The notes beneath the pieces were generated by a model that did not search any database, was not told the DNA's origin, and was given only the letters and a program-made list of their open reading frames with translations. Of a stretch of DNA of 49,329 nt, positions 7,551 through 34,814 are shown piece by piece. The position numbers and the translations under genes were made by a program. The stretch covers positions 1 to 49,329 of IMG/VR virus record IMGVR_UViG_3300046516_000649. One strand, 5' to 3'. The stretch comes from a virus. Position 1 is the first letter of the stretch. Every line of letters starts with the position of its first letter.

Positions 7551-7840
7551 GTGAACTCGCCCTGTGGCTCGCCTGCGTGATTCCGGTGCTGTGCATGGGC
7601 GCTGTCGCGCTCGGAGTGACGCTGTTCGCTTGGCGCGTGATCGCTCGCACGGAGAGCGCGCATCGCGACATGTTGAAGGCGGTCCTCGTGGTGTCCGTCG
7701 CTCCCGCAGCTCCGCAACTCGCCGGGATGATGGAGTCCGCCGACGCGGCGGCGGATAAAGCGGCAGCGGAAGCCGCTGCGGGCAGGGCAGCCGCTGAGGC
7801 CATGAATGCGAATCACCGCAGGTTGAGGCCGGCACACTGA
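7547..7840 (+). CDS. Membrane-anchored helical protein, 97 aa
   Basis: GTG at 7547 overlaps the nuclease stop (GTGA). Residues 4-28 form a transmembrane helix (LWLACVIPVLCMGAVALGVT), followed by a helical Ala/Lys/Glu-rich tail (DAAADKAAAEAAAGRAAAEA). The stop overlaps the portal ATG (TGATG). A small membrane protein between terminase and portal is unusual. It may be anchored in the inner membrane with a cytoplasmic coiled tail. Function not recognised. Confidence 0.75.
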   Translation: MSELALWLACVIPVLCMGAVALGVTLFAWRVIARTESAHRDMLKAVLVVSVAPAAPQLAGMMESADAAADKAAAEAAAGRAAAEAMNANHRRLRPAH

Positions 7841-15908: not shown

Positions 15909-18900
15909 GCCTGACGCGCAGGCCCTACCGAGAGACACGGATCCCCGGCCTCGCTGGGGGCCTGAACGACACTCTCAACCAGACGCTCCTCAACCCCGAC
16001 CAGTCGCCCAACGCGCTGAACGTCGAGTTCAACCGCGAGACGGTGCAGTCGGCCAAGGGGGCGATCAAGTTCAACAATCAGGTCGCGCCGAGGTCTGGGT
16101 TCCGCTCGCGCATCGATCAGAGCTTCTCGCCGCTCTATATCGAGAGCGGCAAGGCCGTGCCGCTGCGTGGCTACGGGTACATCCCGTACTCGCCAGACTA
16201 CGACTTCGGGGGAGACTTCGCGTCCGACACGGGCGGCGCAGACTTCGTGCGCCGACGCGGCGTGGACTTCGAACTGAACGTCACCTTCAAGCTGCCGCTG
16301 GAAGAGAAGCTCTACGAGGCGCCGACGCTGGGCGCTGGGGCTCCGGTGACGCCCGACGCCGCCTTCAATCCACCCAACGGGTACGACGAGGCGCTCGACG
16401 AGTGCTTCACGATCATCCAGAAAGGCGGCGATCGAGCGACGCCGATGTCGTGGGCGCTTGCCGTCGTGAACATCGGCAACGGGGCGCTGACCACCGCATC
16501 GCCGCAGCGCGTCAGCAACTACGCGCTCTGCTGGATCTGGTACGACGCGGCCGGGTGGGGCGCAACCGAACCGGCCACGATGAAATACAACCTGACTTCG
16601 GGGCAGAATCCGAAGTCGGGCGGCGCCTCAGCCTTCTGCACCACCGCGCTTCGTTCGATCCTGATCCACAAGTTCATCGAGCCGGGCAAGCGCTATTCGG
16701 TCGTCGTGCAACTCCGGCGCGACAGTGGAACGCCGGGCAGTCCCTCGACGAACACAGCCTGGAATGGAGACGGCTCCTTCCAGGTGTGGGTCAGTGAGGA
16801 TGAAGAGCGGCCGACGCAATACTACGCAGTCGACACGGTTGGAGTTCTGAGCGTCAGCGGCATGGAGGTTCACAAGGGTCCGCAGGACTCGATCGACTAC
16901 CTCGTTCACTACGGCATCCGCTACAGCGGGCGCGACGCGATGTTCTGGGGGCTCGGCTTCCGCCCGCATGTCTGGAGAAATGCGAGCTTCATCCCGTGGG
17001 GGGCGGATGCTGCGCCGATCCAGACGGGAGGTTACCGGATGATCGATCGGTCGAACCAGACCCGCGACAGCATCTTCGGCATCGGGATCTACACGCTCAC
17101 GGCCACTCACACGCTTGGAGACGCCTACGTCACGATAAATCACCGCGGGTTTTCGGGAGGCAACACACATGGCGGCACGGACCCGATGGGGTTCTTCGTT
17201 GGAGGCGCGTACACCGAATGGGACGGCCTGAATGCGTTTGCCAACGTCGGAACTCCGTTCAATCCCGAGGCGCTTCGCGGATACCGACTCGTCACAACCG
17301 CAGACGACACTGACGGAACGCCCGACGCGAAGGGGATGATCATGAACATCCTCTCGTACGCGGAGACGCCTGGCTTCCGCGTGACGGTCTCGAGCGGGGC
17401 TGCGATCGGCACGTTCGGCGCGGCAAGACCCGTGCTCGTGCAGGCGTACCGCTGGCATCAACGCGAGATCGAGACGTGCGAGCTGCGGATCTGGAAGTCA
17501 CCTCGCGCCTACGACGACGCCGATCAGAAGCTCGCGATGCGGAGGAGAAACTCCATCCACGGCTCGATCGAGATCGACGATGCCACAGAGCCGGATCTGG
17601 CCAACCTCCTCGCGCGCTGGCCGGCGGACGATTCGGGTGGGTCCGTGCTGCGCGAGTCCGTCAGCGGAGGCAAGCGGCACGGATTCTTCGCGCCGTTCGG
17701 CCTCGGAGTCTCAGATGGCGGTTCTCGTGGCCCGAACCTGCTCTTCCTCTCCGGCGAAGGCGAAGCGTGCAAGATCGACTTCAGCACGAACCCGATCGCC
17801 AAGAGACTGATCGAGCGCATGCTCGGCGGACACACGCAAGGCTTCGCTGTCGAGATGACGTGCGTCATGCCGGAGGCCAGCTATTCGGTCGCCGGCCCTC
17901 CCGAGACGTTGCCCGATGGTGGAGTCGTTCCGGGCTTCCGGCCACGCTTCGTCTCCGACCTGATCACATGGGACGTGCCGGATCCCGACGCCTCGGGCAT
18001 GAAGTCGGTGCCGCGCACCATCATCAGCCTCACGCACCGCGCGCTTCGCAACAATCAGACGTCCGCGGGCTTTCCGAATCCGGTTGCCTGGTCAGCCGAG
18101 GTCGCCAACCATACCGATCAAGAGAACATCGATCCGGTCGTTCACAGCGACCTTCTGCCTCTGTATCGAGACGGAGGCTTCCAATTCGTCAACAGGTACG
18201 ACACGGGAGCTTCGTGGGTCGGTCGCTCGATCACGATCCAGGTCGGCATCCAGCCTGTCGTCGGCGGAGGCGCGGACCAGTACGACGTGTACATCGCCAT
18301 GCGGCCGAAGTCGGCACTCAACCCGGCTTCTGGCGATCCGGCCGACGCAGAGTTCGCGTACTTCTCCGCTGGCGGCACGACCTACGGAGACAACCCAGGC
18401 TACTTCACCAGCGCACACATCACGATTCGCGCCAAGGATCTCGCGCGGTCGGTCGTGACGATCGGCGGGAGGTGGAGTCCGCGGGCACCGGCTGGCGCCG
18501 GAATCGCGCTCGGCTACTCCGAGCTGAACGCGCGCATCCTGCTTGATGAAGTGCGTGTGTTCGCGACCGCCGGCCCTGGAGCTCTTCCTGTGACAAACGG
18601 CGGCATCCCCACGCGCGACGGCAAGCTCAGCGGATCCAAATGCCTGCCCGCGCGCCTGCTCACGGAGGCCGACATCCTCCAGCCGCTCGGCCGCGGACTG
18701 CGCCAAGTGAATCTGGTCGAGGACTCGGTGACGGTGCTGCCCGCAGGTGGCGGCAAGTTCTTCACGGCCGAGCCTGGCGACACGGTGGACTCGGTAAAGG
18801 ATTCGATGCTCATCGTGCGCGGTGACGAGATCAGCCTGCCCTCCGAGGAAACCGTCGGCGAGCAGCAGGAGGACTTCTACCGCATCGAATCGGTCAACTC

Positions 18901-21900
18901 GGACGGCTCGAGCCTCACGCTCTCCGACCCCTTCCAGAACGCTACGCGCTCCTCGGCCGTGGCTGCGGCGTTCCGCCTGCTCTTCTACACGGCGTTCGAC
19001 GACGACCTCGAGGAGAAGGATCTCTCGCTCGGTGCGGGCAACGCCTACAACCCGGCGACTTCGACCATCACGTCGGCGCTGATCGTGGACGATCTCTGGA
19101 AGAACCTCTCTCCGGTCACGGTCGCGATGGGCCTGCGGATCTATTCGCCGCTGGGACGCGGCACGCTCGCAGATCTTCTTCCTGCGTGGGTGCGAGGACT
19201 TGTCAGCCAGCGCAAGAACCCGATCCTCGGGATCGCGAGCAGGAACGGCGTGGTCTATGCGGGCGCGCGAGGCTCGCTCTTCGTCGGCGACGATCGCTGG
19301 CGCGAGGACGGCCCGACGCAGGCGATCACGACGAGCCTCGCCTTCCGTGGAGCGCCGCTCACGGGAACCGCCATCTCCATTCCGCGCCACGACGACCGAC
19401 TTTTGTTCCAGGGTGCGGCTCAGTTCTTTCTCAATCCCAACGACAACGAGCCGACCTACTACGAAGCGTGGGTCAAGCTCGACGAGATCAGCGAGTCGCA
19501 GACGATCGTGTGGGTTGGCGATCCGACTACCGACCCGTCTCAGGCGGCCGGCTCTACCCTCAATCGCGCGTATCTCATCCTCCGGCTCACCCGGGGCGTA
19601 CCCGAGTTCGTCGTGGGATCGACGGCGACGCCCGCGACGGAGAAGGGCCTCTACGTTGCCACGGCCAACGGCGGAATTCAGCGCGGCGTCTGGACTCACA
19701 TCCGCTGGTCGATTGCGACGCGCGGGAGCGGCACGATCCTCAAGATCCCGGCGCTGCAGATCAACGGACGCAACGTCGGCGTCACGGTGAATGCCGTCGA
19801 CTCGGGCATTGGAGCGCCGACGTCCTCGGACTGGATGCTCGTGTCCAACCTGCTCGCATTGTTCTCGACCGCGCGGTTGCTCATCGGCGTCGCGCACGAT
19901 TCGTACAAGAGCCCTCGCGACGAGACGGCCATTGCTGCGCGTGTCGAACAGATGGCACCGTCACGCATCCAGGGGCTCATTCACAGCCTCAACGGACAGC
20001 TCGCGGAACTCGCCGTCTTGGGTGATTTCGCCTGGTCGGGATCCGGCACCGGCACACCTCCGCCCAATTTCGATCCGTACAACATCGACTACAGCACGCT
20101 CACCGAGTTCTTCCACATCCTCGGCGCCGTAGGGACACGCAACGTGAATGGGGTCTCGACTGCGACCGGACAGGCCGCGATCGGCCACAAGGTCACGGAC
20201 TTCACGGGGTTCACGGCCGATCGAGGTGTCATCCGCTCGAGTCCGTTTGTCAGTGTCTTTCACGAGTTCGGCCGCTCGAATAGTCCCGTGTCGTGGGCGC
20301 AGTTCGGTGAGACGATCTTCGCCGCGAACGGTGGACGACCTGCGGCGATACTCAACGACGTCGGTGCGTTTGCTGGCGAACTACCGCCCGGCCTGAAGCC
20401 CAGCGTCACGATCGAGCGTTTTCCGGTGTGGGTCGAGAACGTGCGCGACAAGCTCACGGCGCCAAATCCGGCAAACGATCCGATCGACGCGGGGGCCTCT
20501 GGCGCGACGCCGATCAACCACTATCGCTCGACGGGCAACGCCTTCTTCACGCAGAGCCTCTCAAGTACCGACGGCCCGCTCATGGCGTGGGCGACCGACA
20601 AGTACATGGCCTTCAAGTGCTACTGGAGGCCGCAGTCAATCGCTGGGCGTATCTCCATCTGGCGCAAGGGCAACAGCGCGCAGTCTGGCGGCCCGTTCGT
20701 GGAGTGTCGTGACGGAAAGTGTGCCGTCGGCTGGTACGACTCGGCGCTGAAGAAAGAGGTCTGGGTAGAGACGAGCAGCCCGGTCTTCACCGTCGGCGCG
20801 GTCCACTACATCTACATCCGCAAGCGGTTTCCGCAGAACGACCGGCTCGAGGGCAACTGGGTCAACGAGTTCTGCGCGAGCGATCTCCTGCTGCGGCGCG
20901 TGACGACGGTGTTCCCGTTCGCCCTGCAATTCACGATTGGCGAGACGGTGAGGAATCTTGCCCACACGATCTCGGGGGTTGTTCGGCGCTACAAGCAGCC
21001 GAGTTCGACTACATCGAACGATGGGTTCCTCGAGTACGTCAGCACTGGCGGAGGAGACTTCCCCCTAAACACCGACCTCTTGGGCGACACGAGCGGAGCC
21101 TCAGCTCGCACATCGGCAACGATCGCCACGGTCGCGCCGATGAATGACGTGATGGTCGTGCGGAAGCTGCGCACGACGGCGCCGAGCAACACAACGGTCA
21201 TGGAGCTGGATGAGGTCGACACGAATCTCTACACCGTGCCGGCGCGCACAGCCCGCAATGCGGTCTCGTTCACGTCGGAGGTGGCGCAGTATCGTCCCGC
21301 CGGAACAACGGCAACTGGCTTCGTCGGACACTCCGAGGCGACCTATTCCGTCGCCGTCGGAAGCCCTGGACAGATCACCGCGAATGCGTTCGTGGCGGCC
21401 TTCCATCCCCAGATGGTCGGGATGTACTTCCAGTTCGGCAGCGGAGCCAACGCCGGCACGCTCTATCGCATTGTGTCGTACACCAATCCGCTGAACATTC
21501 AGGTCGTCGACGCGAGCTTCTCGACGCCAACGTGGGCTACGGCCAGTGGCCTGATCGGCGGCCCGTTCTCAGGCATCACGCTCATCAAGTCTCCAGACTT
21601 CGATCTCTCCAAGTTTCCCGACACCAACGGCGACATCGAGTTCCTCGGGACAAAGCTCCAGGGCGTAGTGCTGTCTGGCTTCTCCCCGCACGAGGGCGAG
21701 ATGTGGACTCCAGGCTGGACCTGTCAGCTAGGGACCGGTGGTCAGAATGCGCAGGTCTTCGAGAACGTCGACTCGTCTGCGGCGGCGGGGACGATTGACC
21801 CGGCCAACGTCGGAGCGGATCGGTTCGGCGATGGCACGGCCACGCATGGGACGCTCTACGACGGGGTGCTCGGAGAGCCGGGCGAGCTTCACTTCAACGG

Positions 21901-23764
21901 CACGGATGCGGTGAACGAGCCGACGACGCCGACGGCGACCTTCTGGACGACCGACAGCCAGACCTACAACTCGCAGGGAGGCAACGCCTCGAGCCAGCCC
22001 AACGGCACGGCGTCCTCGCCGCCGAGCATCGTCAAGATCCCCACGAACCCGCCGAGGATCACGGCGTCGAACCAGGCGGACCCCGTGCTCTCGTTCATTC
22101 AGGATCCGGCAACGTGGGGCGGCCGACGCTTCATCGCGTGCGCGATCTTCGACCCGGTACAGAACATCGTCAGCAACCCCGGCCCGATCCTGGACATCGC
22201 CCCCAGCGCGGAGGATCCGAAGAACCCGTCGGGATCGGTGCGCTTCCTTCTGAGCGGCCTGCCGCAGCGAAAGAATCACGAGCTCTGGATCTACGAGAGC
22301 CTGTCCGACGGCGATCAAGCTACCCAGTTCCGGGTAGCGCGGTTCGATGCGACGTGCAACGAGTTCGCGGTCGAGGCGGCCGAGGCGCAGATCGCGCTGG
22401 GACCGGTGCTGGAGTTCACCAATCTCAACCCGCCCGCCTGCTACGTCGTGGGGGCCACTGGGACGCGCGTGTGGTACGCGGCCTTCCCGAAGCTGAAACA
22501 GCTCGACGGGGTGATGTACTCGAAGATCGGCCAGCCGGCCTCGATTCGCCTCACGCTGGACGCCGGGTTCTTCCGGCTCGCCTCGGGCTTCGGGGACCAG
22601 ATCACGGGCCTGCAGGCGCTGGACGAGGTGATGCTCGTCACGAAGGATCACGCGATTGCCGTCGCGACGATCAACGCTGCGGACCAGCCGCAGGTCGAGC
22701 CCATCTCGAGCGGCGTCGGCAGCCCGTCTGGAGCGACGATCGTGGCGCTGGACGACCGGGTGTACCTGCAGTCAGAGCGCGGCACGCACGAGATCGCGCG
22801 CCAGGGCGTGACGAACCTCGGGAAGCCGACCATCGTCAGCCAGCCACTGGAAAACTACTTCAGCTTCACGGTGGACCGCCGGTACGCGCGCAGCCTCGCT
22901 GCAGCGCTCAACCGCCAGCGCGATCAGTACGTCGTGCTCATCCGCGAAGTCGGCAAGACCCGCATCCAGAATCGGATCAGCGTCGAGGTGTTCGTGCAGC
23001 GCGGGGGCGAAGCGCTCAACTCGCTGGCGCCCTCAAGCCATCGCTTCGGCCGGTACGAGACGCCCAACCTGTCTGCCATCGCTGCGGTGCAGGGCGCGAA
23101 GGCAGGGCAGGAACGCATGGTCGGCGGGACCGATGACGGCTTCCTTGTGTGGCTGGACCGAGACGACACTCAGAACGTGATGCTCGGCTCGACAGCCGCG
23201 ATCTATGGAGACGTGACCCTTGTGGCCGCCGCGGGCTCTACGCAGTACGAGGTAGTCGTAGCGAGCGGCATCGTCGACGTCGACCTGGAGGGTCCGCGCG
23301 GCTGCACAATGCGGTTCCTGGACGCGAACGGCGTGGAGCGATCCGTGAGCCTGCTTGGAGCGGCGAACATCGGGTCGAACATCCTGTTCCTGGACGAGAA
23401 GGCCGCCGCGAGCGTACCGTCAGGCGCGACGCTGTTGCTTGGCTCGCAGCAACACCGCTGGGAAAGCCCGTGGATGGACATGGGCAACTTCGAGAGGTTG
23501 AAGCAGGCCCACTACCTGAACCTCAACTTCCGTGTCGAGGCTTCCGGCACGCTGCTCGTCGAGTGCTTCGCCGATCTCGACGACTCGGCTCCCAGGATCC
23601 CCGGCCAGACGATCACGCTCTCGGAGGCCAAGCACCAGATTGTCCTCGGGCAGATCGAGGGCCGCTGGCTCAAGTTCAAGATCAGCAACCCGTTCCCGGC
23701 GACAGGCACGAAGTTCGAGCTCGTCAGCGCCGTGTGGCGCACCTTCGACGAAGATCAGGACTGA
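15905..23764 (+). CDS. Giant tail nozzle-like protein with lectin-type inserts, 2619 aa
   Basis: ATG at 15905 overlaps the previous stop. The first 60 residues (RIPGLAGGLNDTLNQTLLNP, then PNALNVEFNRETVQSAKGAI) have the opening typical of podovirus tail nozzle proteins (P22 gp10 / T7 gp12 type). Propeller-like blades recur near residues 1105-1135 (NPILGIASRNGVVYAGARGS), 1460 (WAQFGETIFAANGGRPA) and 2200-2420 (ITGLQALDEVMLVTKDHAIA; RYARSLAAALNRQRDQYVVL). Between them lie concanavalin/LamG-like stretches, clearest at about residues 1180-1375 (YYEAWVKLDEIS, WTHIRWSIATRGSG, then LIHSLNGQLAELAVLGD), and another near 690-900. It is three to five times the usual length. It probably forms the lower tail tube and carries glycan-binding or adhesin domains. 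Confidence 0.75.
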   Translation: MSLTRRPYRETRIPGLAGGLNDTLNQTLLNPDQSPNALNVEFNRETVQSAKGAIKFNNQVAPRSGFRSRIDQSFSPLYIESGKAVPLRGYGYIPYSPDYDFGGDFASDTGGADFVRRRGVDFELNVTFKLPLEEKLYEAPTLGAGAPVTPDAAFNPPNGYDEALDECFTIIQKGGDRATPMSWALAVVNIGNGALTTASPQRVSNYALCWIWYDAAGWGATEPATMKYNLTSGQNPKSGGASAFCTTALRSILIHKFIEPGKRYSVVVQLRRDSGTPGSPSTNTAWNGDGSFQVWVSEDEERPTQYYAVDTVGVLSVSGMEVHKGPQDSIDYLVHYGIRYSGRDAMFWGLGFRPHVWRNASFIPWGADAAPIQTGGYRMIDRSNQTRDSIFGIGIYTLTATHTLGDAYVTINHRGFSGGNTHGGTDPMGFFVGGAYTEWDGLNAFANVGTPFNPEALRGYRLVTTADDTDGTPDAKGMIMNILSYAETPGFRVTVSSGAAIGTFGAARPVLVQAYRWHQREIETCELRIWKSPRAYDDADQKLAMRRRNSIHGSIEIDDATEPDLANLLARWPADDSGGSVLRESVSGGKRHGFFAPFGLGVSDGGSRGPNLLFLSGEGEACKIDFSTNPIAKRLIERMLGGHTQGFAVEMTCVMPEASYSVAGPPETLPDGGVVPGFRPRFVSDLITWDVPDPDASGMKSVPRTIISLTHRALRNNQTSAGFPNPVAWSAEVANHTDQENIDPVVHSDLLPLYRDGGFQFVNRYDTGASWVGRSITIQVGIQPVVGGGADQYDVYIAMRPKSALNPASGDPADAEFAYFSAGGTTYGDNPGYFTSAHITIRAKDLARSVVTIGGRWSPRAPAGAGIALGYSELNARILLDEVRVFATAGPGALPVTNGGIPTRDGKLSGSKCLPARLLTEADILQPLGRGLRQVNLVEDSVTVLPAGGGKFFTAEPGDTVDSVKDSMLIVRGDEISLPSEETVGEQQEDFYRIESVNSDGSSLTLSDPFQNATRSSAVAAAFRLLFYTAFDDDLEEKDLSLGAGNAYNPATSTITSALIVDDLWKNLSPVTVAMGLRIYSPLGRGTLADLLPAWVRGLVSQRKNPILGIASRNGVVYAGARGSLFVGDDRWREDGPTQAITTSLAFRGAPLTGTAISIPRHDDRLLFQGAAQFFLNPNDNEPTYYEAWVKLDEISESQTIVWVGDPTTDPSQAAGSTLNRAYLILRLTRGVPEFVVGSTATPATEKGLYVATANGGIQRGVWTHIRWSIATRGSGTILKIPALQINGRNVGVTVNAVDSGIGAPTSSDWMLVSNLLALFSTARLLIGVAHDSYKSPRDETAIAARVEQMAPSRIQGLIHSLNGQLAELAVLGDFAWSGSGTGTPPPNFDPYNIDYSTLTEFFHILGAVGTRNVNGVSTATGQAAIGHKVTDFTGFTADRGVIRSSPFVSVFHEFGRSNSPVSWAQFGETIFAANGGRPAAILNDVGAFAGELPPGLKPSVTIERFPVWVENVRDKLTAPNPANDPIDAGASGATPINHYRSTGNAFFTQSLSSTDGPLMAWATDKYMAFKCYWRPQSIAGRISIWRKGNSAQSGGPFVECRDGKCAVGWYDSALKKEVWVETSSPVFTVGAVHYIYIRKRFPQNDRLEGNWVNEFCASDLLLRRVTTVFPFALQFTIGETVRNLAHTISGVVRRYKQPSSTTSNDGFLEYVSTGGGDFPLNTDLLGDTSGASARTSATIATVAPMNDVMVVRKLRTTAPSNTTVMELDEVDTNLYTVPARTARNAVSFTSEVAQYRPAGTTATGFVGHSEATYSVAVGSPGQITANAFVAAFHPQMVGMYFQFGSGANAGTLYRIVSYTNPLNIQVVDASFSTPTWATASGLIGGPFSGITLIKSPDFDLSKFPDTNGDIEFLGTKLQGVVLSGFSPHEGEMWTPGWTCQLGTGGQNAQVFENVDSSAAAGTIDPANVGADRFGDGTATHGTLYDGVLGEPGELHFNGTDAVNEPTTPTATFWTTDSQTYNSQGGNASSQPNGTASSPPSIVKIPTNPPRITASNQADPVLSFIQDPATWGGRRFIACAIFDPVQNIVSNPGPILDIAPSAEDPKNPSGSVRFLLSGLPQRKNHELWIYESLSDGDQATQFRVARFDATCNEFAVEAAEAQIALGPVLEFTNLNPPACYVVGATGTRVWYAAFPKLKQLDGVMYSKIGQPASIRLTLDAGFFRLASGFGDQITGLQALDEVMLVTKDHAIAVATINAADQPQVEPISSGVGSPSGATIVALDDRVYLQSERGTHEIARQGVTNLGKPTIVSQPLENYFSFTVDRRYARSLAAALNRQRDQYVVLIREVGKTRIQNRISVEVFVQRGGEALNSLAPSSHRFGRYETPNLSAIAAVQGAKAGQERMVGGTDDGFLVWLDRDDTQNVMLGSTAAIYGDVTLVAAAGSTQYEVVVASGIVDVDLEGPRGCTMRFLDANGVERSVSLLGAANIGSNILFLDEKAAASVPSGATLLLGSQQHRWESPWMDMGNFERLKQAHYLNLNFRVEASGTLLVECFADLDDSAPRIPGQTITLSEAKHQIVLGQIEGRWLKFKISNPFPATGTKFELVSAVWRTFDEDQD

Positions 23765-23767
23765 AAC

Positions 23768-24298
23768 ATGACCGCAGACCTCGAATGGGCATCGCGACTG
23801 CTGAAGCCGGCGTACGGTTACGTCAAGGACGCGAGCAAGGGCGCGGGCGAACTCGTGCGCAGCGGGTACGAGGACATGTTCAAGGCTCGCGCGGGCGCAG
23901 CCGTCGGCGGGTTCGATGAGCAGCAATCGCGCCTGATGGCGAACGCGGCGCAGTCTGGTCTGTCGCCGGACGTGCTCCAGCGGATGCTCTACGCGCCTGG
24001 GATGCAGGTGCAGAATCAGATCGGGCAGGCTCGTGCCGAGACGCAGGGCGGCATGAACTTCGACCTCGCGCAGCTCATGAAGGGCACGGGCTCGGAGCTC
24101 GCCGGGCTGTCGGAAGAAGAGGCGAACATGAAGATGAACCTCTACGCGCAGAAGCGTGGAGAGAAGATGGCGGGCTGGGGGATGGCGGGCGGCCTCCTCG
24201 GCACCGCGGCGGGAGCCGCCCTTGGTGGCGGCGGGATGAGCGGCGGCGGCATGGGCGGCATGGGCGGCGGTGGCGGAGGGGGCGGAAGGTACGGATGA
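23768..24298 (+). CDS. Internal virion (ejection-type) protein, 176 aa
   Basis: ATG at 23768, three bases after the nozzle stop. The chain is helical (KDASKGAGELVRSGYEDMFK, DVLQRMLYAPGMQVQNQIGQ) and turns into a hydrophobic Gly/Ala/Met-rich tail (GWGMAGGLLGTAAGAALGGG) ending in a glycine run, a pattern common in small podovirus ejection proteins that insert into membranes. Its stop overlaps the next start. The role is inferred: released with the genome to help form the transit channel. Confidence 0.65.
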   Translation: MTADLEWASRLLKPAYGYVKDASKGAGELVRSGYEDMFKARAGAAVGGFDEQQSRLMANAAQSGLSPDVLQRMLYAPGMQVQNQIGQARAETQGGMNFDLAQLMKGTGSELAGLSEEEANMKMNLYAQKRGEKMAGWGMAGGLLGTAAGAALGGGGMSGGGMGGMGGGGGGGGRYG

Positions 24299-25635
24299 GT
24301 CCGCAGAACTGGGACTTCCTCAAGCCGTCGGTCGGCCGCGCCGATCTCTCGCCGATCATGGAGGGCGCGAAGATCCAGGCCGATGCCGTGGGCCAGATGG
24401 CGCGGAACATCATGGAGGGGATCAACACGGGCCAGAATCGCGCCGAGCGCAAGCGCGAGTTCGACACCGAAGAAGTGCGTAGGAACGCCCTCGCGGATGC
24501 TGCCCAGAAGCACTACGACGCAGAGGAGGCGCACTACAAGGCGACCGAAGCGCTGCAGCAGCGCCAGTCCGAGCACCAATCGGCGATGGATGCCTACCGT
24601 GCTGGTGCACCGGATCGGATGCAGGCGCGCACGAACGCCGTTGCCGGCGCGATGGGAATTCCCGTGGCCGCTCCGGTTGGACCGAATCAGCCGGGCGCGA
24701 TCGACACTGGCGGGATGGCTCCCTCGGACATCTTCGGCCTGCAGCGTGCGATGGACGAGCAGAAGCGCCAGGCGGTGATCACGCAGAAGGCGCAGTACCA
24801 GCAGGCCGAACATCAGTCCGAGGTGCAGGATGCGACGGACACGTTCGGGCGTGGACTCCGCGGCGGGACGCTCACGCCGCAGGAGCACGCCGCCTTCGTG
24901 GGCATGGCCCAGAAGGACCCCAAGGGCGCTCTCAGCAAGTTCATCGACTACTCGGCGAAGAAGGCCGATCAGGAGCACGAGGAGACCTACCGCACGGACG
25001 TGACGTCGCGAGCGCTGAAGACGGCGAACGAGCAGGAGAAGCTCGGGAACCTCGACGCTGGCAAGGATCTGCGCGCGGCGGCTGCGTCGCTCTCGCACTA
25101 CCACGGGAAGGATCTCCAGCAGAAGCTCCTCGGGCTGGATGAGAAGTCCCAGGGCTTCGCGCTGCCGACGGACAAGGCGACCCCGAAGGGCTCGAAGCCC
25201 GCTGCGCCGAAGGTCACGACCACCAGCGGCAACCGCGTGGAGGTGTCTCCTGGTCTCGCCAAGGGCGGCACCTTCGACGAACTGCGTAGTAATCCGAAGT
25301 CGATGCAGGAGCTGACGGCGCTCGCGCGCGGGGAAGCCCAGAAGGACCCCGAGTACAAGATCGCACTGCAGGAGGCGAGTGTCCTGCGCTCCGGCAACGG
25401 CGATCCGGCGAAGATCCAGATGGCCGACAACAAGCTCGACCAGATCGTGGCGAAGCACGGGAACGCGCTGGCGGGTCAGCTTGGGTGGAAGCAGGGCGAA
25501 GCGAAGATCGAATCCCCGGCCGACCTGAAGGCTGCGATCCACGGCGGAGGTATCGATCGGGCGAAGGCGATCGAGCACGCCAAGCGGCTCGGGATCTCAC
25601 CCGCCGACCTGCAGAAGCTCCTCGAGGAGAAGTAG
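24295..25635 (+). CDS. Helical internal virion protein, 446 aa
   Basis: ATG at 24295 overlaps the previous stop. Residues 20-110 form a long coiled coil (MARNIMEGINTGQNRAERKR, AEEAHYKATEALQQRQSEHQ). The central 100 residues are helical with TPQEHAAFVGMAQKDPKGAL, and the C-terminus (AKAIEHAKRLGISPADLQKL) resembles a short SAP-like or helix-hairpin segment. Composition and position between two other internal proteins fit an ejection protein like P22 gp16/gp20 in role, not in recognisable sequence. Function inferred. Confidence 0.65.
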   Translation: MSPQNWDFLKPSVGRADLSPIMEGAKIQADAVGQMARNIMEGINTGQNRAERKREFDTEEVRRNALADAAQKHYDAEEAHYKATEALQQRQSEHQSAMDAYRAGAPDRMQARTNAVAGAMGIPVAAPVGPNQPGAIDTGGMAPSDIFGLQRAMDEQKRQAVITQKAQYQQAEHQSEVQDATDTFGRGLRGGTLTPQEHAAFVGMAQKDPKGALSKFIDYSAKKADQEHEETYRTDVTSRALKTANEQEKLGNLDAGKDLRAAAASLSHYHGKDLQQKLLGLDEKSQGFALPTDKATPKGSKPAAPKVTTTSGNRVEVSPGLAKGGTFDELRSNPKSMQELTALARGEAQKDPEYKIALQEASVLRSGNGDPAKIQMADNKLDQIVAKHGNALAGQLGWKQGEAKIESPADLKAAIHGGGIDRAKAIEHAKRLGISPADLQKLLEEK

Positions 25636-25638
25636 CCG

Positions 25639-28600
25639 ATGGCCCAGGGCGGCACCCTCACGTACGAGGACGTCCTCGACAAGCACCTGCCTGCCCAGGG
25701 CGGGGACGACTACGACGCGGTGCTGTCGAAGTACCTGCCGGAGAAGGCGCCGCAGGGGCCGATGCCGGAGCCGAGTACCGAGAAACACTCAGCGCTCCAG
25801 CGCTTCACCCACGCCTTCGCGGCGGCCAGCGGCAAGCTCTTCGAGGGCGCGAGTCGGCTGACGGGGAACGACCCGTTCGCCGCGTCCCAATCGGGAACGG
25901 CGGTGCTGACGGGCAAGCCGGATGCGCCCCGGGTCCCGATGACCACACCAGGCGCGGCCGAGGCCAACGCCCAGCAGGACTTCCCGATCAGCCCTGGCGA
26001 GGAGAACACGCCCGCGGCCATTGTTGGGGGTCTCGGCGGAGCCATCGCGCAGACGGCCATCGTGGGGCCTGCGGGACTAGTCCCAGCCCTCTCGGTCGAG
26101 TCGGGAATGGACCACTACGACCGCGCCAAGGCAGCAGGATTGCCCGAGGCGAAGGCGTGGGAGGAAGCCGCCGGACACACTCTGATCACCGCCGGGACGC
26201 TCTACGGGGGCGGTAAGGCGGCCGACATCCTCACGGCCAAGGTTGCCGGCCCGATCCTCGCGAAGATCAACACGGCGTCGGGCGGGTTCCTGGCGAATCT
26301 CCTCCAGCGCTTCGGAAAGGGAGTCGCAACCGGAGCTGGGTTCGCTGGCTCCGGCGAGGCGGGTCTGCTTGTCAGCAAGGCCCTCGACAAGCACGCCGAC
26401 AAGGAAGACCTCCAGAAGCTCGCCGGCTCGTCCAGCGACAAGCGAGAGGCCCTGGTGAACGGTGCGACCGGCTTCATCATGGCGATGCTCCACGCGCCCC
26501 AGAGGCCGCCCAGCGAGATCCCGAGCAGCGGGGAGCGTGAGACCCTTCCCGGCGAAGCAAAGCCCGCCGACGTGCCGCAGGAGGTCGCTCTCGGCCAGCC
26601 CGCGAAGGAGCCGCTCGCGCCGGAAGCTCCCAGTCCGGCCGCCGAAGCTCCCAGTCCAGGGGCAGAATCGCCCAGTAGCGCCCCCGTCGCTGCTCCGACG
26701 CCGCCAGAACCTGAACACCCTGCCGTCGCCCAGCTCGCCGAACTGAAGAATCTCGGGGAGAGCATGGATGCCCTGGAGACCCGCTCCAAGTGGCTTCGGC
26801 AGCGCGGACGCGGCGGCGAGGCGGCCCCGCTCGATGCCCAGCGGATCAAACTCCTCATGCGGCAGCAGGAACTCGCGCTCGAGATCCAGACCGGGGTGGC
26901 GACACGCGCCGCAGCGGAGCAGGCAGGCACCCCCGTCCCCGTCGAGCGCCGACTCGATCGCGAGCAGCGCGCAGCCGTCGAGGCGATGACGCCCGACGAA
27001 CAGAAGAAGGCGCTCTTCACGTCCGAGAAGACGGGCCTCGGCAACGAACGGGCCTACAAAGCCGCGCCCAAGGCCGGCGCCGTCGAGACCTCCCTCGACA
27101 TCGACAACCTCAAGCTGCTGAACGACAAGCTCGGCTACGAGGCTGGTGGGGACGTGGCGATCCGAAAGCTCGGGGAGGCGATCAAGGCAGAGGCGCCCGA
27201 TACGTCCTTCCATCTCCACGGGGATGAGTTCCGCCTGCTCCACAACGACCAGGCATCGGCGGAGGCGACAGTCGAACGAATCAGGGCGCGGATTGAGAAA
27301 GAGGGGTTCGGCATCTCCGCTGGGCACGGATCGACAGCCAAGGAAGCCGATACAGCGCTGCACGCCGACAAGGCGGAGCGCCTGCGGACAGGTAAGCGGG
27401 TTGAGCCGCGCCCAACCGAGTCAGCGCCGCCAGCGCCGGAAGCTCCCGCCGGTCCCGACCCCCGCGAGCAGCTCATCCGCAACATCATCGAGCCGCCGCG
27501 TCCGCCCAAGCCGCCGGTCGATGAAGCGGAGATGCCGGAGGGTCCCGACAGGAACTGGCACACGATCTACGAGAAGTGGGTGCAGGACGACGCGACCGAC
27601 AAGTTCATGACGAGGCAGAACGCGGCGAACCTCGAAGAAGAGGTGAAGGCGTCGATGCCGCAGGACTTCCTCTCGAAGCAGCGCGGCAAGATGCTCGCGC
27701 CCGGAGAGCGCCCCGAGGACATGCTCAGGGCCGGCATGGCGCGTTCGATCGACGCGGGCGACAAGCTCGATGACGCCTTCGGTCGCACGCAGGACAAGCT
27801 CTCCCAGCTCACCAAGGCGAAGCTGAAGGCGATGGCGAACGCGACACCAGAGCAGCGCGCGATCGCAGAGAAGATCCGCGCGCGAGGGCTGTGGTTCGGG
27901 CAGAACGTCGCCGTCGAGGCGGGGATCATTCGCGAGGCGCACGACAACTTCCTGCACCGGATGTACGAAGGCGGAGAAGGCGAGCAGCGTCCGCGCGGCA
28001 GCGCGAAGTTCAAGACCTTCACGACGTCCTCGCTGCCCCGGACCTTCGAGACCATTCTCGACGCCGAGGCTGCGGGCAAGAAGCTCCTGATCGACGACGC
28101 GATCAAGATGCAGGCACAGCTCGAGATCGAGATCCTCGACGTGAAGAACAACCGGAATCTGATCAAGGGCGGACGCAAGGCGGGGATCCTCCGCTTCACG
28201 GAGACCGACCCGAAGGAAGTCGAGGCCGCCGCAGAGACCGGAGCCGAGCCCGAGAAGTACAAGCTGATCGAGAACCCGCGCTTCCGTGACTGGAAGACCG
28301 TCGCGAAGGTCGAACTCGCAGAGCCCGATCCCGAGACGCTCCAGAAGAACCTGTCGAACGCGATGGGCGAGGACGTGCCGAAGGACGAGGCGATCAAGAT
28401 CTACGGCTGGAGCAAGGACATGCTCCGCAAGAACCCGGCGAGCGGCGAGACAGAGAGTCTCGGCGTGCTTGGCAAGGACGTGATGATTCGCGCGGACGGC
28501 ACGATTCTCATGAAGAAGCCGCTGTACGCGCCAGCCGAGATGGCGGACAAGATCAACCTGCAGCTGAAATCCCACCAGTACATGCAGGGACCGATGGGGA

Positions 28601-29997
28601 CTCTCGGCCGCAACGTGGATGTCGCGCAGAACGCGGTGAAGAGCGGACTGCTGAAGGCGCCGGTGCTTCACTACGCGAAGGTCACGCTCGATTTCATGCT
28701 CGGAGCGGATCTCGCCGACTGGAAGGATCTCAATCCGAAGACGGCGTACAAGCGCGGCTGGGACGCAATGGCGGCGCAGGAGCCGAACCTGCGGATGCTC
28801 GTGGCGGGCAGTCTGAAGCTCGAGCCCAGCAGTGAGTGGACGGACGCGATTCACCAGCACCAGACCTGGATCGGCAACGGGATCGACAAGCTCGCCGCGC
28901 GCGGGACGATCTCGATGGCCTCGCGCAACTGGTTGAAGAACACGCTGCAGGATCAGGTGGACTTCCTCTTCCACCGCTACATCCCGGCCCTGAAGGCTCG
29001 CTCAGCGCTCACGGGCCTCGACAACGACATGGTGCGGAACGCCGACAAGATTGCGTCGGGACAGATCACGCGGCAGGAAGTAATCGCCGGTCGCGCGCGA
29101 AACGGGAACACTCTGCTTGGTGATCTCAATCTGCAGCGGCTCGGTCGGGATCCCGAGACGCAGAAGTGGCTGAACCGCCTTCTCTTCTCGCCGACGTGGT
29201 TCGAGTCTGGCATTCGCAAGGCAACCGAAGCCTTCGAGTCCGGCGCTGTCGGAGAAGCGAACCGGCAGATGTGGAAGAACGTGATGAAGCGCTACGCGGC
29301 TACGTGGGTCGCTGGGAACATTGCGGCGGCGGTGATGGAGGATCCGCGCCATCCCAAGGACCAGGCGCTGAAGAACCTGCAGGCGCAGTACGGCGCTGGC
29401 CTGCGCGCGATGCTGGGCGTCGACATCACGCCGGAACTCGCACTGCTCGGCAGGAAGAATCCCAACCGCTTCTACATCGGGATCGCCGGCAGCTTCGCGG
29501 ACACAGCCAAGGCTGCATCGGCTGTCGCGAACACGGCTGGGATGCTCGGCGTGCCGATGCCGAAGGGGATGAACAAGGAAGCCCTCCAGCTCCTCGAGGA
29601 CAAGATGAACGTCGTCGGGCGGGCGGCGATCATGGCAATGGCCGGACAGGATCCGCGCGGACAGCCTGTGACGAGCATCTACGAAGCGACCGGGATGGAC
29701 GACAAGGGTCCGTACAAGACGACCCAGATCGGCAAGCACCTCGCCGGGCAGCCGAAGGGCGGTAAGCTCGCCGGTGAATGGACGAGCTACAGAAGCTCCG
29801 AGAAGCCAGGTCCGATCTCGCCAGAGCAGTACGGGCCGTTCGCCGCCTATCAGCTCGAGCACACCCTCCCGATCCACGTCCAGGGTCTGATCGATTCGAT
29901 CACTGGACAGATGGATTGGTGGCACACCGTCCTCGCATCACTCGGCACGCAGCCGGTTGAACAGACCAATGCGCAACGAAAGGCGATCGGCCAGTGA
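25639..29997 (+). CDS. Large internal virion protein with GGDEF domain, 1452 aa
   Basis: ATG at 25639. The N-terminus carries repeated YEDVLDKHLP / YDAVLSKYLP motifs, then an Ala/Gly-rich hydrophobic region (about residues 125-260) and a Pro/Ala-rich linker with APSPAAEAPSPGAE. Residues 455-575 form a complete GGDEF (diguanylate cyclase) domain: TGLGNERAY (465-473), DIDNLKLLND (487-496), GGD ending at D505, HGDEF (527-531) and a final ADTALHADKAERL. His replaces the first Gly of GGDEF, and the inhibitory RxxD site reads EAPD. The remaining 850 residues are helical with no recognised enzyme motif. It follows two ejection-type proteins, so it is probably delivered into the host. Nucleotide signalling activity is inferred. 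Confidence 0.85.
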   Translation: MAQGGTLTYEDVLDKHLPAQGGDDYDAVLSKYLPEKAPQGPMPEPSTEKHSALQRFTHAFAAASGKLFEGASRLTGNDPFAASQSGTAVLTGKPDAPRVPMTTPGAAEANAQQDFPISPGEENTPAAIVGGLGGAIAQTAIVGPAGLVPALSVESGMDHYDRAKAAGLPEAKAWEEAAGHTLITAGTLYGGGKAADILTAKVAGPILAKINTASGGFLANLLQRFGKGVATGAGFAGSGEAGLLVSKALDKHADKEDLQKLAGSSSDKREALVNGATGFIMAMLHAPQRPPSEIPSSGERETLPGEAKPADVPQEVALGQPAKEPLAPEAPSPAAEAPSPGAESPSSAPVAAPTPPEPEHPAVAQLAELKNLGESMDALETRSKWLRQRGRGGEAAPLDAQRIKLLMRQQELALEIQTGVATRAAAEQAGTPVPVERRLDREQRAAVEAMTPDEQKKALFTSEKTGLGNERAYKAAPKAGAVETSLDIDNLKLLNDKLGYEAGGDVAIRKLGEAIKAEAPDTSFHLHGDEFRLLHNDQASAEATVERIRARIEKEGFGISAGHGSTAKEADTALHADKAERLRTGKRVEPRPTESAPPAPEAPAGPDPREQLIRNIIEPPRPPKPPVDEAEMPEGPDRNWHTIYEKWVQDDATDKFMTRQNAANLEEEVKASMPQDFLSKQRGKMLAPGERPEDMLRAGMARSIDAGDKLDDAFGRTQDKLSQLTKAKLKAMANATPEQRAIAEKIRARGLWFGQNVAVEAGIIREAHDNFLHRMYEGGEGEQRPRGSAKFKTFTTSSLPRTFETILDAEAAGKKLLIDDAIKMQAQLEIEILDVKNNRNLIKGGRKAGILRFTETDPKEVEAAAETGAEPEKYKLIENPRFRDWKTVAKVELAEPDPETLQKNLSNAMGEDVPKDEAIKIYGWSKDMLRKNPASGETESLGVLGKDVMIRADGTILMKKPLYAPAEMADKINLQLKSHQYMQGPMGTLGRNVDVAQNAVKSGLLKAPVLHYAKVTLDFMLGADLADWKDLNPKTAYKRGWDAMAAQEPNLRMLVAGSLKLEPSSEWTDAIHQHQTWIGNGIDKLAARGTISMASRNWLKNTLQDQVDFLFHRYIPALKARSALTGLDNDMVRNADKIASGQITRQEVIAGRARNGNTLLGDLNLQRLGRDPETQKWLNRLLFSPTWFESGIRKATEAFESGAVGEANRQMWKNVMKRYAATWVAGNIAAAVMEDPRHPKDQALKNLQAQYGAGLRAMLGVDITPELALLGRKNPNRFYIGIAGSFADTAKAASAVANTAGMLGVPMPKGMNKEALQLLEDKMNVVGRAAIMAMAGQDPRGQPVTSIYEATGMDDKGPYKTTQIGKHLAGQPKGGKLAGEWTSYRSSEKPGPISPEQYGPFAAYQLEHTLPIHVQGLIDSITGQMDWWHTVLASLGTQPVEQTNAQRKAIGQ

Positions 29998-32870
29998 AAG
30001 CTGAAGGGACAGTCAGCGACACCCAGACCGCTCTGTGGACGCCCACGGAGAAGTGCCGCGTCCAGAGCGTCCGCTTCCACTCCAGCGCCAACGGCCAGAC
30101 CGTGCGCGTGTACGTGCGCAAGGAAGGCAAGACCGCCCGCCGCGTGATGACCTACGTCCTGCAGTCGGACGAGGCTGGCATCCCGATCGGTGAGATCGAC
30201 TGGGAGAAGGGCGATTCGATCGAGGCGATCGCAACCACCAACGGCGCGGTCGACTACACCGTCAACTTCGTCCCGCTGAAGGATGCGAACTATCTCGTGC
30301 ACGGCGGCTTCCGGCCGTCGAAGTACAACTCGCAGGGCGCTGAGGTGATCATCGCCTCGAGCAGCATCGGAACGGGCGTCGGCACGACGGGCTACATCGC
30401 GGGCGGAACCTCCACCGCATCTCTCGGAACGGTCTTCTTCGTCGACTCCAACTCCATCAGCTTCGGGCTGTCGAACGGCAGCATGACGGCGAAGTTCTCC
30501 GTCACCAACACGTTCTCGCAGTCGGTCCAGACGCAGCACGTGCACGACGTCACGCTCGCCGGCAACAGCACGAGCGCTGGCGCTGGGTTCATCCTGATCA
30601 GCAGCGGGACGATGACGATGGCCGGCGGCAGCAACATCACGCTCTCGCAGAACGGCAACGCCGTCACGATCTTCGGAGCGGCCGGGGCGAGCGCTGGCAT
30701 CGCTGGCATCGCGAACTCGGAGACGACCTATACCAGCGGAACGGTCCAGCTCTCCGCGGCGGGCATGATCTCGATCCTGAGTTCGTTCGGTCAACAGTTC
30801 CAGATCAGCGCTCCATTCCAGAGCACGGAGACCGCCGCTTACGCTCTCGATGGAACAGCGAACTCGATCATCGGGCTTGGCACGTCCAGCCAGGTCCTCG
30901 TCAATTCGATCAAGTTCCGGCCGGTCGGAAACATCTCGATCGGCTTCGACCTGTTCGACGTGATCGAGTTCTCTGTCGGCACTGCCGGAGGTGGTGGGGG
31001 CGGGTCCGAGAGCATCGGCATCTCGAATCTGGGGAACACCTCCGGCAACTCCTCCCTGATCAGCGCCGATGGATTCCGCTACATCCTCGTCGGCGACAAC
31101 AACATCACCCTGAATCAGTCGGTCGATGGAGGCAGGAAGTCGGGGACGCTCTCGATCTCGGGTCTCTCCTTCGTGAACTCGAACAATGTGACCTTCGGCA
31201 TTAGCGCTGGAAGTCTCACGGCGAGCGTCAGTGCGGCGTCGACAGGCCAGAGCGTCACGCTCGGCATCTCGACGTTCGGAAACACCTCCGGCACAAACGG
31301 CTTCGTCAGCGGCGATGCGATCCGATACATCTTCGTCGGCACCAATGCCGTCGGTCTCAGCCAGTCGATCGACGCCGGCAACAAGAGCGCGACGCTGACG
31401 ATCAACGTCGCCGCTCAGACGAACCAGAATCTCAGCCTCTTTGCCGCTGGCAACACGGCGAGCACCTCGACATCGAGTGTCCTCAACGCGAGCTCGATCA
31501 TCCTGAATGGCGCGGGTGGCAACTCGATCGGCTTCTCGAACGGCTCGATCATCTTCTCGGGGCCAGTCTCTGCGACGACCATCTCCGGCGTCACGAGCGC
31601 AAACGTGATCGGCACGAGAGGCACGCGCTTCGCGCTCGAGGACCACCAGCACGTCGGGGTCTACAGCGTCGGCGTCTCGAACATCGGAGGCACGTCTGGA
31701 AACACTGGACTGCTACCCGGGCAGATGGTGCTCGCTGGCGGAAACAACATCACCCTGTCGGTCGGCACCGCGGCGGGCTCGCTCCAGACAGTGACGATCA
31801 GCGCGGCGAGCCAGACGAACCAGACCGTCGGCATGTACGCTCTTGGCCAGACGACGCAGAACAGCAGCACGACGTTCGACGCGCGCACGCTCGGATCCTT
31901 CAGCGCGGACGGCCTCCTCACGGTCGGATTCAGCAACGGGACGATCCAGCTCTCGGCGGCACACCTGATCGCCGGCACTCAGACTGCAGGCGGTGCGAGC
32001 GCCGTCAGCCTCGTGAACTCGAACGGCGTGTCGTTCGGGATGTCGAACAGCTCCAACATCACGGCGAACGTGGGGTTCCTCTCGTACTGGGCGAATCAGA
32101 TCCAACTCGACAACACGGCGACAACGACGGTGGCGAATTCCACGTCGTACATCGCGCCGTTCTTCCTGCCGCTGCCGCTGTCGGCGAGCTACCTGCGGAT
32201 GCCCGTCATCATGTCGGCGCAGACAACGACGATCGGGACGACGATCAACACGACGATCACGATGTCGTACCTGCAGACCATCTACGCGATGATCTACTCG
32301 CAAGGAACGGGTGGCAGCTCGCGGAGTCTGATGTCGGTGACGTCGAGTTCGATCGGGTGGACGCAGGTCTTCAAGTACCAGCAGGCCGGCGTCACGAACC
32401 AAGCGACGCACAGCTACCAGATCAGCTACGGCATTGAGGGGGGCAGCACGCAGACATTTGCGGCGAGTGCCGGCCAGACCGCATCGACGCAGACACTGCA
32501 GTCGAGCATCGCCTCGGACTTCAGCGGACTCCGATACCTGGACATCCCCTTCGGCAATTCGCTGTCGGCCGGCGCTTACTGGTTCGCCTACGGCCTGAGC
32601 AGCACGACCTCGACGCAGGGAACGAACGCGCTCACGAACCTGGCGTTCACCCATGCCGTGATCGTCAACACGAATCAGCCTCTGACAAACGTCGGCACTG
32701 GAAACTTCGGCAACATGGGCGCGGCGACAGCGACGTCACAGGACATTCTCTTCGGTATCGGCAGCTACACGTCGAACGCGATCGGGCCGGTTGCCGCGCT
32801 CGCCATGTCGAACGTCAGCAGCAATGCCAAGCGCATCAACCCCTACTACCAATTCGTGCGGCAGGCGTAG
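29994..32870 (+). CDS. Tail fibre/spike with repeated beta modules, 958 aa
   Basis: GTG at 29994 overlaps the previous stop (GTGA). The first 100 residues (TQTALWTPTEKCRVQSVRFH) likely form the tail-attachment domain. The rest is built of repeats with the pattern G-x-S-N-x-G-N-T-S-G-N, then G-N-N-I-T-L, then a closing T-x-T-I-S: clear copies start at about 31013, 31258 and 31666, with shorter ones (VNSNNVTFGISAGSLTASV; FSNGSIIFSG) around them. Composition is Ser/Thr/Asn/Gly-rich with few charges. The C-terminal 280 residues, without repeats, probably form the receptor-binding tip. No chaperone or depolymerase motif is visible. Confidence 0.75.
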   Translation: MKAEGTVSDTQTALWTPTEKCRVQSVRFHSSANGQTVRVYVRKEGKTARRVMTYVLQSDEAGIPIGEIDWEKGDSIEAIATTNGAVDYTVNFVPLKDANYLVHGGFRPSKYNSQGAEVIIASSSIGTGVGTTGYIAGGTSTASLGTVFFVDSNSISFGLSNGSMTAKFSVTNTFSQSVQTQHVHDVTLAGNSTSAGAGFILISSGTMTMAGGSNITLSQNGNAVTIFGAAGASAGIAGIANSETTYTSGTVQLSAAGMISILSSFGQQFQISAPFQSTETAAYALDGTANSIIGLGTSSQVLVNSIKFRPVGNISIGFDLFDVIEFSVGTAGGGGGGSESIGISNLGNTSGNSSLISADGFRYILVGDNNITLNQSVDGGRKSGTLSISGLSFVNSNNVTFGISAGSLTASVSAASTGQSVTLGISTFGNTSGTNGFVSGDAIRYIFVGTNAVGLSQSIDAGNKSATLTINVAAQTNQNLSLFAAGNTASTSTSSVLNASSIILNGAGGNSIGFSNGSIIFSGPVSATTISGVTSANVIGTRGTRFALEDHQHVGVYSVGVSNIGGTSGNTGLLPGQMVLAGGNNITLSVGTAAGSLQTVTISAASQTNQTVGMYALGQTTQNSSTTFDARTLGSFSADGLLTVGFSNGTIQLSAAHLIAGTQTAGGASAVSLVNSNGVSFGMSNSSNITANVGFLSYWANQIQLDNTATTTVANSTSYIAPFFLPLPLSASYLRMPVIMSAQTTTIGTTINTTITMSYLQTIYAMIYSQGTGGSSRSLMSVTSSSIGWTQVFKYQQAGVTNQATHSYQISYGIEGGSTQTFAASAGQTASTQTLQSSIASDFSGLRYLDIPFGNSLSAGAYWFAYGLSSTTSTQGTNALTNLAFTHAVIVNTNQPLTNVGTGNFGNMGAATATSQDILFGIGSYTSNAIGPVAALAMSNVSSNAKRINPYYQFVRQA

Positions 32871-34008: not shown

Positions 34009-34173
34009 GTGGAAGTCGACGTCCAAGCGTGCCAAGTGATCGCCGAGAAGCGGGTCTATTGTCCTCGCTGCGGTGAGCCCGTGTCGATCGTCGGCTTCGT
34101 CGAGAGCATCACGCATGGCTCCGCGATGGCAATCACGTGCCTTCGCTGCTACCCCGAGGAAGAGAGAGCATGA
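34009..34173 (+). CDS. Zinc-ribbon protein, 54 aa
   Basis: GTG at 34009 to TGA at 34171-34173, overlapping the methyltransferase ATG (ATGA). Two Cys pairs (VYCPRCGEPVS and TCLRCYPEEE) are separated by about 20 residues, a textbook zinc ribbon. It may be an accessory to the methyltransferase that follows, or a separate regulator. No family is recognised beyond the ribbon. Confidence 0.75.
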   Translation: MEVDVQACQVIAEKRVYCPRCGEPVSIVGFVESITHGSAMAITCLRCYPEEERA

Positions 34174-34814
34174 GCAAGAAGACCGCAAAGCGTCGGATGA
34201 GGATCCCGCGTCTGCGTAGCGTGCGTGCGCCGCAGAATGGCCATGCGCAGCCGGCGATCGGCCTTGTGAAGCTCGACCTCGGCTGTGGGAACAATCCGCG
34301 CGAGGGCTTCATCGGTGTGGACGCGATCAAGTTCGAGAAGGTCAGCGTCGTGCACGATCTGCGCCAGCCCTGGCCGTGGACGGACTCGTCGGTGGATGAG
34401 GTGCACTGCTCGCACTTCCTCGAGCATCTCACGCAAGACGAGCGCTGCTTCTTCTTCAACGAACTCTGGCGTGTGCTGAAGCCCGAAGCGAAGGCGCTGA
34501 TCATCACGCCGCACTGGTCGAACAACCGCGCGTACGGAGACCCCACGCATAAGTGGCCTGCGGTGACGGAGATGTCCTACTACTACCTGAGCCGTGACTG
34601 GCGCGCGGGCAACGACAAGGGCGCGGTCGCCCAGGCTCCTCACACCGACATCGCACACAATCCGAACGGTCTCAAGTGCGACCTCCTCTTCTCAGCCGGC
34701 GCGAGCTTCGGCCAGGACGTGTCGGTCAAGGCGCAGGAGGTTCAGATCTTCGAGACCACGCACTACATCAACAAGGCCATCGACCTTCACGCGACGGTCA
34801 CGGCGAAGAAATGA
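34170..34814 (+). CDS. SAM-dependent methyltransferase, 214 aa
   Basis: ATG at 34170 overlaps the upstream stop; AGGAAGAGAGAG just before it acts as ribosome binding site. The class I motif VKLDLGCGNNPREGFIGVDA binds S-adenosylmethionine, followed by the second acidic strand (VSVVHDLRQPWPW) and the post-II motif VDEVHCSHFLEHLTQDERCF with conserved E-H. FFFNELWRVLKPEAKALIIT completes the fold. Relatives act on sugars, lipids or small molecules more than DNA; the target here is unknown. The glycosyltransferase two genes before it suggests a shared surface-glycan modification. Confidence 0.85.
   Translation: MSKKTAKRRMRIPRLRSVRAPQNGHAQPAIGLVKLDLGCGNNPREGFIGVDAIKFEKVSVVHDLRQPWPWTDSSVDEVHCSHFLEHLTQDERCFFFNELWRVLKPEAKALIITPHWSNNRAYGDPTHKWPAVTEMSYYYLSRDWRAGNDKGAVAQAPHTDIAHNPNGLKCDLLFSAGASFGQDVSVKAQEVQIFETTHYINKAIDLHATVTAKK

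Follow-up and report, generated by a model that had tools for sequence, protein, structure and literature searches.

A GGDEF (diguanylate cyclase) domain of a phage-specific lineage is encoded within a 1452-residue protein specified by the ORF at 25639-29997 (+) of the 49,329-base viral contig IMGVR_UViG_3300046516_000649, the whole of which was analysed and is hereafter referred to as the window. The gene is located among virion structural genes, and its product is predicted to be ejected into the host with the genome and to synthesise c-di-GMP at genome entry, a mechanism to which, taken as a whole, a probability of roughly 45% is assigned.

The assignment of residues 446-590 to the GGDEF family is practically certain. 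The full-length protein was matched to the Pfam GGDEF model PF00990 with 25.9 bits (E-value 9.3e-6, residues 486-554), above the curated cut-off of 23.8 bits, and a 170-residue piece of it with 30.5 bits (E-value 3.6e-7); all 51 related modules match the same model, and diguanylate cyclases were also returned for the 1452-residue protein by NCBIfam and PDB sequence searches. To keep this test from being circular, a profile was constructed from 49 related phage modules leaving out the window protein and its nearest sister; this leave-out profile scored 121.4 bits against residues 436-588, while the best of 2000 shuffles of the window protein reached 8.1 bits. The AlphaFold2 model of the module (mean pLDDT 94.6, pTM 0.84) has the palm-type nucleotide cyclase fold, and a Foldseek search of the PDB with this model retrieved SiaD first (E-value 5.7e-8), followed by DgcB, with DgcR and SadC also among the matches (E-values for these and others of about 6e-8 to 1e-6). 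The top 38 fold matches are diguanylate cyclases or related GGDEF-containing proteins, and the remaining ones include GTP cyclohydrolase III and adenylyl cyclases, which belong to the same fold class. The preliminary description, made from the sequence alone, had claimed a GGDEF domain with all its landmarks in order and had proposed a profile search and structure prediction as checks, a fold without the palm-type cyclase core counting against it; the motifs were found at the residues it gave, and Pfam, the leave-out profile and the predicted fold agree with it. The module and its motifs are as follows.

25639-29997 (+): P0001, ORF for the 1452-residue putative ejection protein, in the position of T7 gp16 and P22 gp16
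26974-27408 (+): GGDEF module, residues 446-590, taken together with the two helices that typically precede the domain in the phage lineage (Pfam, leave-out profile, AlphaFold2 with Foldseek)
27031-27057 (+): TGLGNERAY, residues 465-473, domain entry motif (T465 in 48/51, N469 in 45/51 and A472 in 49/51 modules)
27097-27126 (+): DIDNLKLLND, residues 487-496, with the metal-binding Asp D487, D489, K492 and the guanine-binding N495
27151-27153 (+): D505, the expected guanine-specificity Asp (Asp in 45/51)
27190-27201 (+): EAPD, residues 518-521, at the place of the RxxD product-inhibition site; RxxD absent
27217-27231 (+): HGDEF, residues 527-531, active-site hairpin (G528, D529 and E530 in 51/51, F531 in 50/51)
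27346-27384 (+): ADTALHADKAERL, residues 570-582, C-terminal helix with the expected phosphate contacts K578 and R581

The conservation of these residues was examined in a census of the 51 related modules, using the residue numbering of the window protein; the roles of the residues (metal ligands, acidic pair, Lys, guanine-contacting Asn and Asp) are those we presume by comparison with PleD. D487, D489 and N495 are present in all 51 modules and K492 in 49, while A570 and K578 are invariant and R581 is found in 45. The window module thus carries the complete set expected for catalysis (D487, D529, E530, K492, N495, D505 and K578). It is nevertheless among the more divergent members, having a one-residue Gly insertion before D505, in a column that is a gap in 48 of the 51 modules, and L493 in place of a near-invariant Trp. 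The two-glycine GG(D/E)EF signature is not present in the window protein, its HGDEF departing from it at the first position only. Across the census this position is occupied by Ser in 40 modules, Gly in seven, His in three and Ala in one, a distribution in which the share of Ser is biased upward by scan patterns that favoured Ala, Ser or His there, although GGDEF forms were still found. RxxD, which is common in active diguanylate cyclases and is not required by them, occurs in one of the 51. The His replacing the first Gly and the EAPD at the inhibitory site, both pointed out in the preliminary description, are real; the altered Gly and the lost inhibitory site are, however, traits of the phage lineage as a whole rather than of this protein.

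The extent of this lineage was examined in annotated phage genomes, viral contigs, bacterial genomes and plasmids. The closest proteins in annotated phage genomes are solo proteins from Yuavirus and Vojvodinavirus. Several are labelled as diguanylate-cyclase GGDEF proteins, and YuA gp44 is annotated with a 'putative role in host cell conversion'. A scan of IMG/VR with an alignment of solo proteins of this type identified 60 loci encoding a relative of the module; 51 of these lie in ORFs of more than 950 residues (up to about 4450) and six are solo genes. In a maximum-likelihood tree of the phage modules and of bacterial cyclases from genome contigs, the phage modules constitute one side of a branch with 98/98 support, the bacterial side of which also includes two divergent viral-contig sequences (L063 and L066); the window module forms a sister pair (100/91) with that of the viral contig L018, likewise an HGDEF form. 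Phage and cellular types also differ in the C-terminal signature, which is AD..L...K..RE..G.R in the former and AD..MY..K in the latter, and in bacterial genomes the profile E-values part the phage type (about 3e-31 or better) from the cellular type (3e-21 or weaker). Only five phage-type matches were found in bacterial genomes, all of them on MAG contigs, and a plasmid search for the module returned mostly apparent ordinary cellular cyclases. A solo GGDEF gene of the YuA/FP1 type was observed at 6235-6705 of an 8.6-kb contig binned in a Microbacteriaceae MAG (L069); the gene is very close in the tree to the copies of Pseudomonas and Bordetella phages, and the contig is probably a phage contig inside a bacterial bin.

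The solo proteins YuA gp44, MP1412 and Bordetella FP1 gp39 belong to the same lineage as the window module, with 33-36% identity in the alignment, and share its C-terminal signature and the altered first Gly; they differ in being 156-residue products of stand-alone genes outside the structural block of siphoviruses, the YuA copy adjoining an antirestriction gene. GGDEF domains in phage polyvalent proteins were reported by Iyer et al. 2017, together with the prediction that these proteins are injected with the DNA (PMC5512222). The statement in the preliminary description that no well-described system of this kind exists therefore overlooks both that study and the annotated solo proteins of YuA (gp44), MP1412 and the Bordetella phages. 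As in the polyvalent proteins, the GGDEF domain of the window lies in a very large phage protein whose gene stands among virion genes and for which injection is predicted; unlike them, the window protein has no other recognised polyvalent domain, and its motif is HGDEF. Pfam searches of eighteen related giant proteins together with the window protein detected GGDEF in all, and the other families found among the related giants include RadC, a helicase pair, InPase, LPD1, LPD22, LPD23, LPD38, ART-PolyVal, Kinase-PolyVal and PBECR5, many of which are polyvalent-protein domains described in that study. InPase domains occur in about 15 GGDEF giants, and a coupling of the two activities through pyrophosphate removal was considered. 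A control scan of IMG/VR for InPase, fetched independently of GGDEF, gave at least 523 confirmed stretches, and among the best 80 of these (L091-L170) a single protein has a GGDEF module; the association is thus unspecific, InPase being simply common in giant proteins, and this weakened candidate was not used as evidence.

Diguanylate cyclases work as dimers, which weighs against synthesis by ejected subunits unless these can pair. The alteration of the first motif residue has been studied in bacterial enzymes: VCA0965 (natural motif AGDEF) and ECA3270 (SGDEF) are active, an engineered HGDEF form of VCA0965 raised c-di-GMP significantly, about three-fold, whereas its Ser form lost activity, and Ala, Ser, His or Met is tolerated at this position in some enzymes (PMC3974145). 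The VCA0965 mutants lend no support to the idea that His abolishes the active site; with the first position permissive in published enzymes, His at position 527 is compatible with activity without being proof of it. Those two proteins resemble the phage modules in having a GGDEF fold with a non-Gly first motif residue, and differ from them as bacterial signalling proteins, with RxxD retained in VCA0965 and lost in the phage lineage. The near-invariance of the metal-, base- and phosphate-contacting residues across modules carried by otherwise unrelated proteins is as expected under selection on catalysis. The module is judged somewhat more probably active than inactive. Retention of D505, which we take from PleD to be a guanine-favouring residue, would favour guanine as the substrate.

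A module that binds GTP or c-di-GMP with no synthesis, acting as a sensor, as a sponge for host nucleotides or as a regulatory or dimerising part of the ejectosome, is a rather unlikely alternative. The replacement of the first motif Gly in 44 of the 51 modules would suit it, as would the existence of natural altered-motif GGDEF domains that are receptors and not enzymes (PMC3974145); against it stand the presence in 51 of 51 modules of D487, D529, E530 and K578, which catalysis requires and mere binding does not, and the absence of RxxD, which is the c-di-GMP-binding site of many GGDEF receptors. It is also conceivable, if unlikely, that an active enzyme makes another cyclic or linear dinucleotide, or serves to confuse nucleotide-based anti-phage signalling and not to influence motility or biofilm. 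Iyer et al. 2017 suggested that host responses based on similar nucleotides are interfered with (PMC5512222), and the related giants bear conflict domains (ADP-ribosyltransferase, kinase, nuclease); the expected guanine contacts D505 and N495 are however retained, and no defence-linked gene was seen adjoining the GGDEF gene. Synthesis of c-di-GMP is preferred as the working interpretation. The virion genes around the GGDEF gene are listed below.

7840-9894 (+): portal protein, P22-like (PF16510, E-value 7e-14; phrog_156, E-value 1.4e-29)
11479-12936 (+): major capsid protein (phrog_14242, E-value 2.1e-38)
15827-23764 (+): 2645-residue putative tail protein (local match of residues ~2248-2323 to Jasmine gp24, E-value 4e-5)
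23768-24298 (+): ORF of 176 residues in the position of T7 gp14 and P22 gp7, with an ATGA overlap with the next gene
24295-25635 (+): ORF of 446 residues in the position of T7 gp15 and P22 gp20
29994-32870 (+): 958-residue Gly/Ser/Thr/Asn-rich, repetitive, fibre-like protein; its gene starts within the last 4 nt of the GGDEF gene

The GGDEF gene is the third of a tightly packed set, its ATG lying 3 nt past the preceding stop, with the portal and capsid genes upstream and the tail and fibre-like genes adjoining. No PHROG match was found for the 176-residue, 446-residue or 958-residue products; the last is likely to be a fibre, in the T7 gp17 position. Apart from its match to Jasmine gp24 the 2645-residue ORF matches no family; it apparently encodes a tail protein grown to about four times the usual size. 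Among the closest named relatives of the portal and capsid proteins (23-26% identity) are those of Arthrobacter phage Jasmine, which electron microscopy shows to be a podovirus (PMC5513430). The gene order of Jasmine is similar, the gp24 gene being followed by two small genes, a middle-sized gene and a gene for 1803 residues; BLASTP detected no similarity between the window protein and Jasmine gp28. No large terminase was found in the whole window by tblastn with Jasmine TerL, so that the contig may be incomplete or its terminase very divergent. Elsewhere in the window, a methyltransferase-like domain lies shortly after the fibre-like gene (34137-34814, +; PF08241, E-value 1.7e-6) and a YqaJ-like viral recombinase domain in the right part (43511-44476, -; PF09588, E-value 4.5e-18).

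In short-tailed phages the products of the ejection operon have sizes of 181-240 (gp14-like), 431-982 (gp15-like) and 609-1337 (gp16-like) residues (PMC8954989). The window set of 176, 446 and 1452 residues, followed by the fibre-like gene, matches the order of the gp14-gp15-gp16 cluster, which bears out the internal-protein gene context noticed in the preliminary description. Many other GGDEF giants likewise have a small and a middle-sized gene in front of them, and among the families matched by neighbours of the related giants are those of internal virion proteins, DNA ejection proteins, tails and tail fibres. The protein resembles T7 gp16 and P22 gp16 in that its gene comes third, and is the largest, in a cluster of small, medium and large genes, in its comparable size and in having weakly hydrophobic regions on either side of a soluble middle; it differs from them in lacking detectable sequence similarity, as it does to known ejection-protein families in general, and no transglycosylase domain was found in it. 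To our knowledge, T7 gp16 has no GGDEF domain. The argument from position, together with the P22-type portal, makes it likely that the 1452-residue protein is ejected with the genome.

It is quite unlikely that the protein, being made late, acts in the virion-producing cell, or in the lysogen of temperate relatives, and not in the next host. In favour of such a role, short stand-alone members of the lineage are encoded away from the structural genes (YuA gp44 and other solos), and lysogens of the Bordetella phage LK3, which has such a gene, show increased biofilm, but also increased motility (PMC8471281). The module lies, however, inside a giant protein both in the window and in some 50 contigs related to it, and many of the giants examined follow small and middle-sized genes, some belonging to internal-virion or ejection families; such a placement would be useless if the activity were needed only in the producing cell and therefore counts against this role.

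In the rest of the protein, the module is bracketed by linkers and more distantly by weakly hydrophobic regions.

26026-26508 (+): weakly hydrophobic Gly/Ala-rich region, residues 130-290 (Kyte-Doolittle peaks up to 1.54)
26539-26688 (+): Pro- and Ala-rich linker preceding the module, residues 301-350 (24% Pro)
27439-27588 (+): Pro-rich linker following the module, residues 601-650 (22% Pro)
29281-29658 (+): second weakly hydrophobic region, residues 1215-1340 (Kyte-Doolittle peaks up to 1.05)

Judged by its hydrophobicity, the region of residues 130-290 is a possible membrane-inserting segment. GGDEF is the sole domain recognised in the window protein by Pfam, PHROG and NCBIfam, with no convincing family match outside the module. 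Its flanks showed no resemblance to the other GGDEF giants by phmmer or hhalign, the probabilities of single-sequence hhalign comparisons with all the giants being at most 2%, and no close relatives of the whole protein or of its C-terminal third were found in viral contigs. LPD38 and other polyvalent domains were considered for the C-terminal half; there was no Pfam match, and a small LPD38 profile built from the giant of contig L008 missed the protein. A longer match to the giant of contig L045 (residues 396-765) was rejected as whole-protein homology, as it consists of the module and a weak alignment in charged regions. The Pro-rich brackets and the unmatched flanks fit a shuffled domain set into a protein of other origin. 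That the protein is simply a tail or other structural protein, and its GGDEF fold a functionless relic, is very improbable: the unmatched flanks would allow it, whereas the catalytic residues are strongly conserved across very divergent modules and the module has been kept repeatedly in unrelated giant proteins.

The preferred mechanism, synthesis of c-di-GMP by an ejected enzyme, can be outlined as follows. The 1452-residue product would serve a podovirus-like phage as its third and large ejection protein, in the place of gp16 in T7 and P22, and would carry the compact GGDEF module of the phage lineage between its Pro-rich linkers. During genome delivery, the protein would exit the virion and thread into the envelope of the cell, bringing its central part into the host cytoplasm, where the middle part of T7 gp16 is located (PMC8954989) and where a module using GTP would have to be. 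N495 and D505 would bind GTP, D487 and D529 would hold the metal, and two GTP molecules would be condensed into c-di-GMP. Since there is no RxxD site, the module would not be restrained by its own product, and a few ejected copies could raise the local c-di-GMP ahead of any phage gene expression. The signalling state of the host would thereby shift to one that is non-motile, resembles a biofilm or is altered in some other way; alternatively, nucleotide-based defence may be disturbed. The more general proposal that such uninhibited, phage-specific diguanylate cyclases are widespread, are delivered as proteins by ejection proteins and switch the second-messenger state of the host before phage gene expression is put forward tentatively.

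The concept of injected GGDEF domains has been in print as a general prediction since 2017; added here are the window member and the definition of the subfamily by its lineage, its signature and a census of the catalytic residues. The published HGDEF mutant of VCA0965 is linked here to the odd His of the window protein. If the modules are active, many phages would inject at infection an enzyme making the main lifestyle signal of bacteria. This would represent a protein-level step in host takeover before transcription, with a possible bearing on motility, entry into biofilms, superinfection and nucleotide-based defence.
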